A stretch of DNA of 43,275 nucleotides, from positions 1 to 43,275 of the forward strand of contig JACWEA010000007.1 of NCBI GenBank assembly GCA_014653775.1, given 5' to 3'. The notes beneath the pieces were generated by a model that made no database searches, was not told where the DNA came from, and was given only the letters and a program-made list of their open reading frames with translations. Shown one piece after another: positions 16,018 to 25,977 of the stretch. How positions within the stretch are numbered: the stretch's first letter is position 1; each line of letters opens with the position of its first letter. This DNA comes from Pelagibacterales bacterium SAG-MED30 (GTDB lineage: Bacteria; Pseudomonadota; Alphaproteobacteria; Pelagibacterales; Pelagibacteraceae). Made by a program: the position numbers and the translations under genes.

Positions 16018-17028
16018 ATGTACATAGAAAATAGTGTTAGAAAAAAATATATTTCTTTTTGGTTAGCGACTATGTTTTGTATCATTTCAATAATGATAGT
16101 AGTCGGGGGTTTAACTAGACTTACTGATTCTGGATTATCAATTACAGAATGGGAGCTTTTTTCTGGTTTCTTACCACCTTTAACTACTAGTGATTGGGAT
16201 AATTATTTTAACTTATATAAAGAAATTCCTGAATTTAAAGAACAAAATTATTCTATGACATTACAAGAATTTAAAATAATTTTTTGGTGGGAGTGGGCTC
16301 ATAGATTTTTGGGAAGACTTATTGGTATTTTATTTCTTATACCTTTAATTATTTTTACATTTAAAGAAGGTTATAAAAAATTAATCAATTTATATGTAAT
16401 TTTTTTCTTAATTTGTTTTCAAGGATTTATAGGATGGTATATGGTTTCTAGCGGATTAGTTGATAGAGTTGATGTTAGTCATTTCAGATTATCAATTCAT
16501 TTAATTATTGCATTTTTAATAATTACATTAATTTTATGGAATTATTTAAACTTAAAAATCAAAAAAAATTTACATGAAAAATTAAATTACTATATTCCAG
16601 TATTATTTTTAATTTTTATATATGGACAAATTATTATTGGCGCATTTGTATCAGGAATGGATGCTGGTCAAATATATAACTCTTGGCCTTTAATGGGTAA
16701 TTCTTATTTTCCTGATGATAATGAAATTATCAATATTTTTAAAATTTCTGCATTTAGTGAACCATCTTTAGTTCAATTTTTTCATCGTAATTTAGCTTAT
16801 ATAATATTAGTTTTTTATTTATTTATATTAATTAAAATCTACAAAAAAAAATTGAAAAAATTATATGTTCCAATAAATATTGTTGGTTTATTCTTGATTA
16901 TTCAAATTTTTTTAGGAATATTAACTTTAATTTTAGGTGCACAGATTTATATAGCTTCTATGCACCAAATAAGTTCTATATTTTTAGTTAGTTCTTCCGT
17001 TTATTTTTTGTTCTTAAATTCTAACTAA
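16018..17028 (+). CDS. ctaA: Heme A synthase CtaA (COX15-type)
   Basis: Inner-membrane oxidase that converts heme O to heme A for cytochrome aa3 oxidase. Eight membrane segments are expected and visible; family marks are GGLTRLTDSGLSITEW, WWEWAHRFLGRLIG, GFIGWYMVSSGL, VSHFRLSIHL, GAFVSGMDAG, FFHRNLAY and ASMHQIS, with the conserved histidine pairs. I start at ATG 16018 (MYIENSVRKK, 336 residues); the frame is open further upstream but that part lies antisense to the chorismate mutase gene. The 3' end overlaps convergent metY by eight bases. Confidence 0.95.
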   Translation: MYIENSVRKKYISFWLATMFCIISIMIVVGGLTRLTDSGLSITEWELFSGFLPPLTTSDWDNYFNLYKEIPEFKEQNYSMTLQEFKIIFWWEWAHRFLGRLIGILFLIPLIIFTFKEGYKKLINLYVIFFLICFQGFIGWYMVSSGLVDRVDVSHFRLSIHLIIAFLIITLILWNYLNLKIKKNLHEKLNYYIPVLFLIFIYGQIIIGAFVSGMDAGQIYNSWPLMGNSYFPDDNEIINIFKISAFSEPSLVQFFHRNLAYIILVFYLFILIKIYKKKLKKLYVPINIVGLFLIIQIFLGILTLILGAQIYIASMHQISSIFLVSSSVYFLFLNSN

Positions 17029-18349
17029 CAGCTTTTAAAGTCCCTTTAGAAGATTTATTCAAGGCTTGATCTAAATCTTCAATAATATCGTCAATATGCT
17101 CTAAACCAATACATAACCTGACATAACTTTGTGTAACTCCAGAAGCTGCAAGTTCATCTTCATTTAATTGACTATGTGTTGTACTAGCTGGATGAATAGC
17201 TAAACTTCTAGCATCTCCAATATTAGCGACATGATAAAACATTTTTAAAGATTCTATAAATTTTTTACCAGCATCAAAACCACCTTTTAATTCAATACCA
17301 ATCATGGGTCCATTTCCACCTTTTAGATATTTTTTGGCTCTATCTGCAAGAGGTTTTTCATGTTCAGTTGAATAAATCACTCTTGTTATTTCTTTATGTT
17401 TTTTTAAATATTCAACAACTTTTTGAGCATTTTCACAATGTTGCTTCATTCTTAAAGGTACAGTTTCAAGTCCTTGAATAATTGCAAAAGCATTATCAGG
17501 CGAGCAAGCTGAGCCTAAATCTCTTAATAAACAAACTCTAGCTCTAACTGCAAAAGGGATATTTGCTCCAGTAAGTTCGGGCACAACTTTACCCCAAACT
17601 GCTCCTTTGTAACTAGCATCTGGTTCATTAAATAAAGGTTGTCTTTTAGGATCAGCTGTCCAATCAAAATTACCACTATCTACAATGCTACCTGCAATAG
17701 CAGTACCATGTCCTCCAATATATTTTGTTAAAGAATGAACAACTATAGCAGCACCATGTTCTATCGGTTTACATATTATTGGTGCAGCTGTGTTATCCAT
17801 TATTAATGGTATGTTATATTTTCGACCTATGTCTGAAACTTCTTTAATCGGAAATACTCGTAAATATGGATTTGGTAAAGTTTCTCCATAAAAAGCTCTA
17901 GTTTTATCATCGATTACTTTTTCAAAGTTTTTAGGATCTTTTGGGTCAGCATATCTTATTTCGATACCAAGTTTACTTAAAGTATGTGTAAATAAAGATA
18001 CAGTTCCTCCATATAGATCTGTTGAACTAACAATATTATCTCCAGCTTGTGCAACATTTAATACAGCAAAAGCTGATGCTGTTTGCCCAGATGAAACTGT
18101 CAAACAAGCCAAACCACCTTCTAACTCGGCAATTCTTTTTTCTAATACATCGTTAGTTGGATTCATTATTCTTGTATAAATATTACCAAACTCTTTTAAT
18201 GCAAAGAGGTTGGCAGCGTGGTCTACACTATTAAATTGATAAGATGTAGTCCTATAAATAGGAACAGCTACCGCATTTGTTGTAGGATCACTTCTATAGT
18301 CACCACCATGTATGGCTATAGTTTCTGGATTATTTTTTTTTGTACTCAT
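17021..18349 (-). CDS. metY: O-acetylhomoserine sulfhydrylase (MetY family)
   Basis: PLP enzyme of the Cys/Met metabolism family, making homocysteine (or methionine) directly from O-acetylhomoserine and sulfide or methanethiol. The PLP lysine is Lys209 in VVHSLTKYIGGHG; VPIYRTTSYQF, IYTRIMNPTNDVLE, SSGQTASAFA, LYGGTVSLF and the C-terminal SLAIHPASTTHSQL are all typical. Length 442 is characteristic of MetY rather than the shorter MetB/MetC. It is preceded by an AAGGAG ribosome-binding site and by two SAM-responsive RNA elements. Good codon conservation and higher GC than neighbours suggest strong expression. Confidence 0.96.
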   Translation of the reverse strand: MSTKKNNPETIAIHGGDYRSDPTTNAVAVPIYRTTSYQFNSVDHAANLFALKEFGNIYTRIMNPTNDVLEKRIAELEGGLACLTVSSGQTASAFAVLNVAQAGDNIVSSTDLYGGTVSLFTHTLSKLGIEIRYADPKDPKNFEKVIDDKTRAFYGETLPNPYLRVFPIKEVSDIGRKYNIPLIMDNTAAPIICKPIEHGAAIVVHSLTKYIGGHGTAIAGSIVDSGNFDWTADPKRQPLFNEPDASYKGAVWGKVVPELTGANIPFAVRARVCLLRDLGSACSPDNAFAIIQGLETVPLRMKQHCENAQKVVEYLKKHKEITRVIYSTEHEKPLADRAKKYLKGGNGPMIGIELKGGFDAGKKFIESLKMFYHVANIGDARSLAIHPASTTHSQLNEDELAASGVTQSYVRLCIGLEHIDDIIEDLDQALNKSSKGTLKAVS

Positions 18350-18412
18350 TATTACTCCTTTTTTAGTGCTTTAACTTTATGTAAGGCGCACAATATAGTT
18401 CAAATGCCTACC
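18350..18412 (-). promoter_or_regulatory. SAM-V riboswitch overlapping the metY ribosome-binding site
   Basis: Read on the minus strand, a short stem AGGC (18409-18406) / GCCT (18387-18384) encloses a loop that forms two pseudoknot helices with the downstream segment: AACT (18400-18397) with AGTT (18376-18373), and GTGC (18391-18388) with GCAC (18369-18366). The CTAAAAAAGGAG stretch then carries the Shine-Dalgarno AAGGAG at 18360-18355, six bases before the ATG. This is the SAM-V layout known from Pelagibacter metY leaders, where SAM binding hides the ribosome site and lowers translation. Confidence 0.85.
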
Positions 18413-18424
18413 GATTATTTAATG

Positions 18425-23748: not shown

Positions 23749-24198
23749 TAGGTGCTATTTATTTACTAATATATAATGTATTACTTTAATTTATATATAT
23801 AAATTATTGTAATTATTGAATTTAATTAATATATAAATAAATAAAAATAGTCTTAATTTAAACTTTTTTTCAATACGATTTCAGCGAAACTAGTTATTTT
23901 ATACTTAAATTATCAAGAATATTAAATAATTGTTTAAAAATGGGGGTTTTTAGAATAGCTGAATTATAAAAATATTCTAGAATAGAGCAGCCTAAAAGCG
24001 TTGGTATTGATGAATATTAGAGAGATGCACTTATAGAATATAGCGTTTAAACAGTCATAGAGGTGTCTAATTTAAGTAAATGATCATATATGCTACAACT
24101 AAAGGGTGAAATATACTATTTAGTGAATAAAGGGCTAAAATATTAAAAAAATGTTGATTTTATTAGCTTATTTACATTAAAAAAATGTTAAAATAACC
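23749..24198. other. Gene-poor stretch between the DMT gene and the alkyltransferase gene
   Basis: This 450-base stretch is unusual in a genome with almost no spacers. All frames are broken by frequent stops and I found no recognisable protein or RNA. Visible structure: an inverted repeat TAGAATA (23951-23957) / TATTCTA (23973-23979) with a 15-base loop, just after a GGGGG run, and a 14-base direct repeat near the right end. One frame between about 23985 and 24080 gives short runs of peptide split by TAG and TAA codons, so a decayed gene cannot be excluded. It may be a scar at the edge of the variable region. Confidence 0.5.
24142..24189. repeat. Direct repeat of 14 bases
   Basis: ATTAAAAAAATGTT occurs at 24142-24155 and again at 24176-24189, spaced 34 bases start to start, inside the gene-poor stretch. 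The second copy is also part of a short inverted repeat ACATT-AAAAA-AATGT at 24174-24188. In DNA this AT-rich such a repeat may be chance; no function is assigned. Confidence 0.45.
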
Positions 24199-24477
24199 CT
24201 ATATTGGTACTTTTTCTGATCTCAATAATCTGAGTTTTTGTTTACTTCCACCTCTTCCAGAGTAACCTCCAAGGCCTCCATCAGATCTAATTACTCTATG
24301 ACAGGGTATTTTAGGGGCATAAGGATTTTTTGCGCATGCATTCGCTACAGCACGAGCAGATTTAGGGCTTTTTATAGCAATAGCTACTTGTTTATAAGTC
24401 TTTACCTTACCTTTTGGTATAGTTTTTAGGTAAGCCCAAACTTTCAATTGAAATTTAGTGGGGGAGTATTTTTTCAT
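24199..24477 (-). CDS. MGMT-type alkyltransferase domain protein (methylated-DNA-protein-cysteine methyltransferase family)
   Basis: Ninety-two residues forming only the DNA-binding/active-site domain of O6-alkylguanine-DNA alkyltransferases. The winged-helix region runs FQLKVWAYLKTIPKGKVKTYKQVA, Arg42 in ARAVANA is the finger arginine, and the active-site Cys59 sits in IPCHRVIRSDGGLGGYSGR. The cysteine is kept, unlike alkyltransferase-like (ATL) proteins, which have tryptophan there, so suicidal dealkylation is possible, but the N-terminal half of Ada/Ogt enzymes is absent. The ATG immediately follows the U-tract of the terminator of the upstream RNA gene, leaving no room for a normal ribosome-binding site after that hairpin. 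Confidence 0.9.
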   Translation of the reverse strand: MKKYSPTKFQLKVWAYLKTIPKGKVKTYKQVAIAIKSPKSARAVANACAKNPYAPKIPCHRVIRSDGGLGGYSGRGGSKQKLRLLRSEKVPI

Positions 24478-24522
24478 AAAAAAAACCCTGATACTTTACA
24501 CTTTTTAGGGTGCAAAGATCAG
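24478..24522 (-). terminator. Intrinsic terminator of the structured RNA, touching the alkyltransferase start codon
   Basis: On the minus strand CTGAT (24522-24518) pairs with ATCAG (24492-24488), with inner pairs between TTTGCAC and GTGTAAA, a loop around CCTAAAAA, then GGG and eight U residues at 24485-24478. The stem plus U-run fits a Rho-independent terminator. The next three bases are the ATG of the alkyltransferase gene. Confidence 0.8.
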
Positions 24523-24670
24523 AATTTTATGGTTCGTCGTTTTATGCGCTACCGCCGAACCTACCACCCCGTATGTTAAGCGCTGCTTTACAGGGCTTTC
24601 TGCCCTCCAGACTTGAACCTCTCGGTTTTTCTCTGGCTGGCCAGTTAAGAGTTGCCTCTTAAGTTAGATA
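24478..24670 (-). ncRNA. Unidentified structured RNA, about 190 nt
   Basis: A sharply GC-rich island in AT-rich DNA, with no protein frame, folding on the minus strand into consecutive helices: TTAAGAG-GCAA-CTCTTAA (24662-24645, GNRA loop); CCAGA (24636-24632)/TCTGG (24611-24607) enclosing AACC-GAGA-GGTT (24627-24616, GNRA loop); AGGGC-AGAAA-GCCCT (24606-24592); and GGTTCG (24561-24556)/CGAACC (24536-24531). The last loop contains AGCGC (24550-24546), complementary to GCGCT (24583-24579), so a pseudoknot is possible. An intrinsic terminator closes it. I compared it with SRP RNA, RNase P RNA, tmRNA, 6S RNA and the common riboswitches and found none of their signature sequences. It is either an independent small RNA or a leader/riboswitch of the alkyltransferase gene. 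The 5' end is approximate. Confidence 0.72.
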
Positions 24671-24760
24671 CACAATATCAAATAATGATTTAAATTATTA
24701 TCACTAAATAGTTGTTTTTTTTAAATTAAGAAATTTTATGTGAATTACGGTGATAACTTT

Positions 24761-25011: not shown

Positions 25012-25977
25012 ATGAGTGATTTAAAAAAACCTTATTCAATGTTTCAAATAATGCCTAAGTTAAAATCTAACAACTTAGCAGAGATTAAGCAGCTTGAGGA
25101 AGATACTTTGAAAAATCTTCAAAGTTCTAAAGCAACAAATACTTTACGAGCTTACCAATCAGATTTTAGAGATTTTTCAGCTTTCTGCTCAAAAAATGGT
25201 CTTTCATCAATGCCATCACAACCAAAAATTATATCTATTTACATAACACATTTATCTAAATCATCTAAATTTAGTACTTTAAAAAGAAGAATAGCCTCAA
25301 TAAGTGTTATTCATAAGCTTAAAGGTCATTATTTAGACACCAAACATCCAATAATCATGGAGAATTTGCATGGAATTAAAAGAAAAATAGGTTCAAGACA
25401 GAAAGCAAAAAAACCTATATTAATCAACGATTTAAGATTATTAATTAAAGCAATAGATCAAAAAAAGAAAGAAAAATTAAGAGACAAGGCTTTAATATTG
25501 ATTGGATTTGCAGGAGGATTTAGAAGATCTGAATTAGTAAGTATAATTAAAGAGGATATCGAGTTCGTAGCTGAAGGAGTAAAAATACTCATTAGAAAAT
25601 CTAAAACTGATCAATCAGGTGAAGGTGCTCTTAAGGCAATCCCCTACTTTGATAATAAAGAATTTTGTCCAGTAACAGCACTTAAAGAATACATAAAATC
25701 AAAAAATTGGAGTTTAAATGAGGGAAAAATTTTTGATATTTCTGATAAATCAGTTGCTCTTATAATAAAAAAATATGCTCAAATAGCAGGTTTAGATGCA
25801 TCAAAATATGCTGGTCATAGTCTAAGATCAGGTTTTGCTACTACTGCAGCGGAATTTGGAGCTGAAGAAAGAAGTATTATGGCTATGACAGGTCACAAAA
25901 CCACACAAATGGTTAGAAGATATATTCACGAGGGTAATTTATTTAAAAACAATGCTTTAAATAAAGTTAAGCTTTAA
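25012..25977 (+). CDS. Tyrosine recombinase/integrase (phage-integrase family)
   Basis: Site-specific recombinase of 321 residues. A SAM-like N-terminal core-binding domain (about 25-110: LEEDTLKNLQSSKATNTLRAYQSDFRDFSAFC) is followed by the catalytic domain (about 130-310). The catalytic set is complete: Arg171 in GGFRRSEL, Lys198 in KSKTD, His269 and Arg272 in HSLRSGF, His295 in TGHKT and the nucleophile Tyr304 in RRYIHEG. It is probably active. A perfect inverted repeat lies directly before the start, and no Shine-Dalgarno is visible. Its 3' end overlaps the convergent glycosyltransferase gene by 11 bases. It marks the variable region, though I could not define island ends. Confidence 0.94.
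   Translation: MSDLKKPYSMFQIMPKLKSNNLAEIKQLEEDTLKNLQSSKATNTLRAYQSDFRDFSAFCSKNGLSSMPSQPKIISIYITHLSKSSKFSTLKRRIASISVIHKLKGHYLDTKHPIIMENLHGIKRKIGSRQKAKKPILINDLRLLIKAIDQKKKEKLRDKALILIGFAGGFRRSELVSIIKEDIEFVAEGVKILIRKSKTDQSGEGALKAIPYFDNKEFCPVTALKEYIKSKNWSLNEGKIFDISDKSVALIIKKYAQIAGLDASKYAGHSLRSGFATTAAEFGAEERSIMAMTGHKTTQMVRRYIHEGNLFKNNALNKVKL

Follow-up and report, generated by a model that had tools for sequence, protein, structure and literature searches.

SAR11 bacteria are among the most abundant bacteria of the sea and possess very few regulators. IMES-2, an abundant transcript in seawater, typically has marine alphaproteobacteria as its hosts; the motif is said to have been described by Weinberg et al. 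in 2009, and Rfam types the family (RF02035) as a gene. No paper that we found gives IMES-2 a function, and a literature search for psRNA together with SAR11 found none. In the available portions of their main texts, PMC2864571 and PMC2864753 do not name IMES. The gene contexts given in the available part of the account of other potential motifs by Meyer (2009) differ from that of the copy described here (PMC2704228), and the accessible part of the report on the giant squid draft assembly mentions IMES-2, for which its authors suspected environmental contamination (PMC6962438).

Here we analysed such a copy in a stretch of 43,275 nucleotides of SAR11 DNA; this whole stretch is referred to as the window. 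On its sequence, the block under study is a copy of IMES-2, an RNA of marine bacteria that is listed in Rfam but has yet to be explained. We propose, with a probability of roughly 0.55, that the block is the gene of a stand-alone, compactly folded RNA that may act in trans by binding protein.

Identity and distribution of the RNA

The block carries a full-length match to RF02035 on the minus strand (model positions 1-141; cmscan against Rfam), with a score of 151.8 bits against a curated cut-off of 54.7 and E = 7.5e-40 (Table 1). The window's RNA is a further member of a known Rfam family, the function of which is open as far as we know. The original prediction had presented the block as an undescribed element and possibly a new RNA, and had named a strong hit to a known Rfam family as the result that would remove the novelty; because the cmscan search returned just such a hit, the claim of novelty falls and an undescribed RNA is ruled out. 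The same prediction had described a structured, noncoding RNA of a marine alphaproteobacterium that ends in a terminator, and this description is right; the host is SAR11 and of the kind typical for IMES-2: all of the nearest 80 named loci (of at least 433) of the neighbouring gene belong to Pelagibacteraceae or Pelagibacterales records. At the IMES-2 site, cmscan listed no other Rfam family near its cut-off, and no Rfam riboswitch or ribozyme matched there; 6S RNA (RF00013) gave no match in the window at the gathering cut-off, nor at the site up to E 5.

The block had been noted as GC-rich in DNA of about 30% GC, and its core indeed has 50% GC, compared with 17.5-30.5% in 200-base windows off the block nearby and 35-38% over the neighbouring gene. 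The RNA lies on the minus strand, a point on which the original prediction was silent. Folding of this strand gave -48.8 kcal/mol with a z score of -4.06, which was equalled in none of 200 shuffles, and the plus strand gave a z score of -1.87. This confirms that the block is more structured than chance at the place where structure had been proposed. There is no gene-like frame, also as proposed, and the one ORF of at least 40 aa inside the block is antisense to the RNA.

Table 1. Features at the IMES-2 locus, in window coordinates
Feature	Position	Strand	Basis or remark
IMES-2 RNA core	24529..24669	-	RF02035 model positions 1-141, cmscan 151.8 bits
P1, UUAAGAG-GCAA-CUCUUAA, GNRA tetraloop	24645..24662	-	7 pairs, 100% of cells paired, two-sided changes at 5/7
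P2, internal loop and GAGA-capped tip	24600..24644	-	two-sided changes at 9/11 pairs (lower part) and 4/4 (tip)
P3, hairpin with large loop containing AGCGCU	24566..24596	-	two-sided changes at 8/8 pairs
P4, hairpin GGUUCGGCG/CGACGAACC, loop containing AGCGC	24531..24561	-	two-sided changes at 5/9 pairs
Putative kissing pseudoknot, P3-loop half GCGCU	24579..24583	-	pairing and two-sided changes in relatives
Putative kissing pseudoknot, P4-loop half AGCGC	24546..24550	-	pairing and two-sided changes in relatives
-35-like promoter element, CAACTATTTAGTGATA	24699..24714	-	GTGATA starts 35 nt upstream of RNA position 1
Candidate -10 element, TGATAT	24675..24680	-	18 nt after GTGATA; read from the sequence
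Tandem boxes TTATCACCG-TAATTCACA, DnaA-box-like	24739..24756	-	far upstream; resemblance only
Intrinsic terminator, bulged hairpin and 8 T	24478..24522	-	outside the Rfam model
Antisense GTG frame, 50 aa	24510-24662	+	sole ORF of at least 40 aa inside the block
Downstream gene, MGMT-type DNA-binding domain protein (PF01035)	24199..24477	-	Pfam, 110 bits
Upstream small ORF, 57 aa	24761..24934	-	no Pfam match

With a wider model and E values up to 1, the order yielded IMES-2 in 200 of 397 genomes, after three of the 203 initial matches (E 0.01-0.16; genomes G225, G678 and G712) had been dropped as chance matches that looked coding by eye. The Rfam model found it in 108 of 247 genomes of the order, and across the class three of 385 genomes matched, all of them in the window's own family; stricter filters applied to any search of more than 40 genomes. 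Second weak matches in IMES-2-positive genomes were taken as chance, some of them after inspection. SAR11 can do without IMES-2, as the RNA was not found in 197 of the 397 genomes, including 76 of the 151 that are at least 90% complete; it was present in the other 75. Nine IMES-2-negative genomes, six of them consisting of a single contig, gave no match or matches at E 0.75 and worse.

Presence and absence can also be followed at loci of the MGMT-type gene that lies next to the RNA in the window. Among the nearest 80 such loci (of at least 433), 54 have IMES-2 and 26 are without it, and the search for divergent copies at these 26 found no match up to E 5 at any of them. On a tree of this short gene, at least three changes are forced, and parsimony gives 12. 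Carriage of IMES-2 by phages or plasmids gave no match: one pattern match in IMG/VR lies inside a long frame and fails the covariance model, and a looser pattern returned 20 matches, the best of which scored 11.9 bits.

Hairpins and loop-loop pairing

The helices that had been drawn from this single copy are present, namely UUAAGAG-GCAA-CUCUUAA with its GNRA loop, an arm with a GAGA (GNRA) loop, and GGUUCG...CGAACC with AGCGC in the loop. This copy also allows a hairpin GGGC-AGAAA-GCCC to be drawn, whereas in the consensus fold its AAA is the linker between P2 and P3. When homologues were collected and checked for covariation, as had been suggested, the alignments showed that the window's RNA has the four consensus hairpins of RF02035 and that all four covary. 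In a 44-row alignment, which takes in distant genera and was fitted to the hairpins with a model that lacks the pseudoknot contact, two-sided changes are seen at 34 of 44 pairs and pairing reaches 93.4% of cells, falling to 33-41% in versions with a slid partner, these being counts of cells in related sequences and not of events; in P2, pairing is 93.2% in the lower part and 86.9% in the tip. A 36-row MAFFT alignment of relatives that was not fitted to any structure gave two-sided changes at 25 of 44 pairs and 93.7% of cells paired, pseudoknot included. One inner position of the P4 stem is unpaired in all 44 sequences and never forms a standard pair (it is G-A in the window's copy). The most conserved nucleotides of the 36-row alignment lie in stems, loops and linkers, and not in one long open seed.

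It had also been proposed that the AGCGC loop pairs with an upstream GCGCU, which would join the loops of P4 and P3, and comparison of relatives supports this kissing pseudoknot. In the 44 sequences, 95.9% of its cells are paired, and two-sided changes occur in 15 of 220 cells against 3.0 in shuffled alignments, with none of 500 shuffles as high; slid versions pair in 5-66% of cells. On a tree built without the loop columns, four changes are needed at pair 94-128, all between G-C and A-U and with no broken state, and four at pair 93-129, three of them between C-G and U-A. The two-sided changes would represent three to four separate events at each of these two pairs, on a tree made from a short sequence and carrying no support values. 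The first pair is missing in 8 of the 44 sequences, and in a 73-row set that is heavy in one clade pairing is 91.9%, with the first pair broken in 28 of 72. For the 44 rows, two measures do not stand clear of the shuffles: 68 of 500 shuffles had at least as many pseudoknot pairs with two-sided changes (three of five), and 361 of 500 had at least as many pair types. A slide by +1 yields 12 two-sided cells in the 44 rows, yet just 34% of its cells pair, and 16 in the 73-row set, compared with 12 in place.

The loop combinations seen were AGCGCU with AGCGC, AUCGCU with AGCGA, AGCACU with AGUGCU, AGUACU with AGUACU, AGUGCU with AGCAC, and AUCGCU with AGCGC, the last forming four pairs only. AGCACU and AGUGCU pair together, and neither pairs with itself as a continuous helix; therefore, the contact appears to be one between the P3 loop and the P4 loop, made within one molecule or exchanged between two. 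The fold program prefers local pairing inside the P3 loop and is a program that cannot show pseudoknots. The Rfam structure line for RF02035 has no kissing contact, and such lines cannot show pseudoknots either. The kissing loops, the promoter-like elements and the terminator are thus additions relative to the Rfam model, which we do not claim to be unpublished.

Transcription signals and nearby sequence

All 44 copies have a -35-like element of the GTGATA type, the start of which hardly varies (-33 to -36) and which is usually preceded by CAAC or CAAT and A/T bases. Similar promoter-like elements accompany IMES-2 at several of its genomic sites. Farther upstream, at -74 to -87 on the RNA's strand, TTATNCACA with at most one mismatch was found in 20 of 20 upstream types, defined as differing by more than 30%, against 1.8 expected from shuffles. 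Two such boxes often stand in tandem as read from the sequences, and one upstream type (L030) also has an exact TTATNCACA match on the other strand. The most distant copies have a similar upstream arrangement, in L112 by the box scan and in L241 and L242 by eye. We take these boxes to resemble DnaA boxes; because the consensus was chosen after the boxes had been seen, the resemblance is a lead rather than a test. At the other end, the intrinsic terminator that had been predicted is present, with a hairpin of z -5.93 (24483-24528, which leaves out most of the T run) followed by eight T; a simple terminator scan did not list it in the window. By our own criterion, a terminator follows the RNA in 40 of 44 relatives, the window's copy included, and is missing in L049, L077, L114 and L239. 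With these elements at its two ends, IMES-2 looks like a transcription unit of its own.

Three extensions of these observations were tried and rejected. The -35-like motif alone is uninformative as a genome-wide tag, because it is about as frequent as its reversed control in all 14 genomes (14 of 14 with matches; 153 matches versus 150). A promoter shared with tmRNA was not seen by eye in 17 loci. The idea of a replication origin beside the RNA, which came from the DnaA-like boxes, was followed by GC skew, sampled in two single-contig genomes at 20 stretches of 20 kb per genome, and is not supported: the skew is weak and the two disagree, the RNA being near the cumulative maximum in G015 and not in G007.

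Several other features of the surrounding DNA may be recorded. The product of the 57-aa upstream ORF is probably a membrane protein. A phage-integrase-type tyrosine recombinase gene (PF00589) lies near the IMES-2 locus at window 25012-25977 (+), and genes that by eye look like tyrosine recombinases are also near IMES-2 in L003, L008 and L030. Window 23749-24198, which separates an EamA transporter from the MGMT-type gene, comprises 450 bases without a listed ORF of at least 70 aa and without an Rfam match at the gathering cut-off. A SAM-V riboswitch (RF01826, 84.6 bits) is found at window 18352-18418 (-), and the gene of a Cys/Met PLP-dependent enzyme, 17021-18349 (-), lies just downstream of it, which we take to be an arrangement of a known kind.

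Possible functions and known counterparts

In the reading that we prefer, IMES-2 would be made as a free transcript of ~190 nt and would fold into a compact body with P3 beside P4. This RNA may act in trans, not by pairing as an antisense RNA but by binding a protein as a scaffold or a decoy, with the contacts made by its invariant nucleotides in loops, the internal loop and linkers. Judging from the upstream boxes, a DNA-binding regulator, possibly DnaA, could control transcription of the RNA.

It is unlikely, in our judgement, that IMES-2 is instead an antisense sRNA acting in trans on mRNAs, with which it would pair independently of Hfq. Such an RNA would equally be expected as a free transcript with its own promoter-like region and a U-tailed terminator. 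However, no long conserved unpaired seed was seen, and the conserved loops are able to pair with each other. We also inspected the RNA machinery of 18 SAR11 genomes, nine with and nine without IMES-2 (17 of the 18 at least 90% complete; the window's own genome is 67% complete). Neither Hfq (0/18; 5 of 14 controls positive) nor ProQ (0/18; one of 14 controls positive, E. coli only) was found, so that an Hfq-dependent sRNA would have no Hfq in these hosts, and classical Hfq- or ProQ-assisted antisense action is weakened. The alphaproteobacterial tmRNA was detected in 17 of the 18 genomes and in one of the 14 controls.

Still less probable is a cis-acting leader or attenuator of the MGMT-type gene, riboswitch-like and with the terminator as its switch. 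In the window's genus this gene lies on the same strand downstream of IMES-2 at 56 of 57 inspected loci (a contig end interrupts the remaining one), and the distance is 52-75 nt with one case of 255; these loci are mostly the best-scoring ones, the 56 complete loci (one genome twice) being drawn from about 150 IMES-2-positive genomes of the genus. Such a near-constant, same-strand neighbour would also fit a cis-acting role and thus speaks against the protein-binding RNA that we favour. Against a leader, the gene is missing from the available flank at all 15 loci in genera g2, g5, g6, g286 and g287, so that a same-strand MGMT-type gene follows the RNA at 56 of 72 loci, all of one genus. The flanks were read at 12 of these 15 loci, and the next downstream gene is on the opposite strand at 11 of 11 loci in g2, g5, g6 and g287; the g286 locus has it 203 nt away on the RNA's own strand. 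The neighbours themselves differ: a g5 example has a PF03054 tRNA thiolation-type enzyme upstream and, downstream, a protein that matched no Pfam family, g6 and g287 looking the same by eye, a g2 example has SNase upstream and an SRAP gene downstream (Pfam), and a g286 example has RmuC downstream (Pfam). Furthermore, the MGMT-type gene does without IMES-2 at the 26 loci mentioned above, and in the window its predicted ATG directly follows the T run, so that a ribosome site would not fit between the terminator and the gene.

Among the genera inspected, only the window's fits a leader of the MGMT-type gene, and the constancy of this gene there together with its absence elsewhere argues against a riboswitch. 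The alternative raised by the original prediction, a new riboswitch, is not supported, given the promoter-like region, the several unrelated gene contexts and the opposite-strand genes downstream. Because IMES-2 is conserved in surroundings this varied and brings its promoter-like region along, it is most simply a gene and not a leader. DNA-repair-type neighbours of IMES-2 occur in different genera (the MGMT-type gene in the window, SRAP and RmuC in L112 and L241), which may be chance.

We consider it very improbable that IMES-2 is a SAR11 replacement for 6S RNA acting as an RNA polymerase decoy. This idea would account for the lack of an Rfam 6S match in the same 18 SAR11 genomes, when 5 of the 14 controls, including E. 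coli and Caulobacter, were positive. However, nine of the 18 are also without IMES-2, and its chain of short hairpins is unlike the long bubbled hairpin of 6S RNA; because genomes with and without IMES-2 both lack a 6S match, a stand-in is not indicated. A self-cleaving or otherwise catalytic RNA, to which a pseudoknotted fold and many invariant nucleotides could point, is the least credible reading, as no Rfam ribozyme matched the site, we recognised no catalytic signature and the ends look like a promoter and a terminator.

One may speculate further, with little confidence, that IMES-2 is a lineage-restricted RNP or an RNA-only oligomer held by near-palindromic kissing loops, with its gene switched by DnaA or another protein of the DnaA-like boxes. 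If this were true, bacteria in which neither Hfq nor ProQ nor a recognisable 6S RNA is apparent would have an RNA regulator linked to replication. The wider interest of the family is that about half of the SAR11 genomes searched keep IMES-2, whose structure appears to be strongly constrained, and that one gene junction offers natural comparisons, since some genomes have the RNA there and others do not. With the putative loop contact, the promoter-like elements and the likely ends, what was an anonymous Rfam family can now be built as a construct for experiments.

Compared with known systems, the window's RNA shares the same four hairpins with IMES-2 (RF02035), and nothing was found that excludes membership. 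It resembles 6S RNA (RF00013) in being stand-alone, structured and of similar length, and differs from it in architecture. Like the purine riboswitch, IMES-2 would have two neighbouring hairpins with kissing loops; unlike it, IMES-2 appears to be a stand-alone gene, in which we recognised no ligand core or expression platform. GOLLD, ROOL and OLE are far larger than IMES-2, which has about 141-190 nt. These structured bacterial RNAs form homo-oligomers, according to the available part of the source (PMC12286853), and the near-palindromic loops of IMES-2 could likewise allow oligomers.
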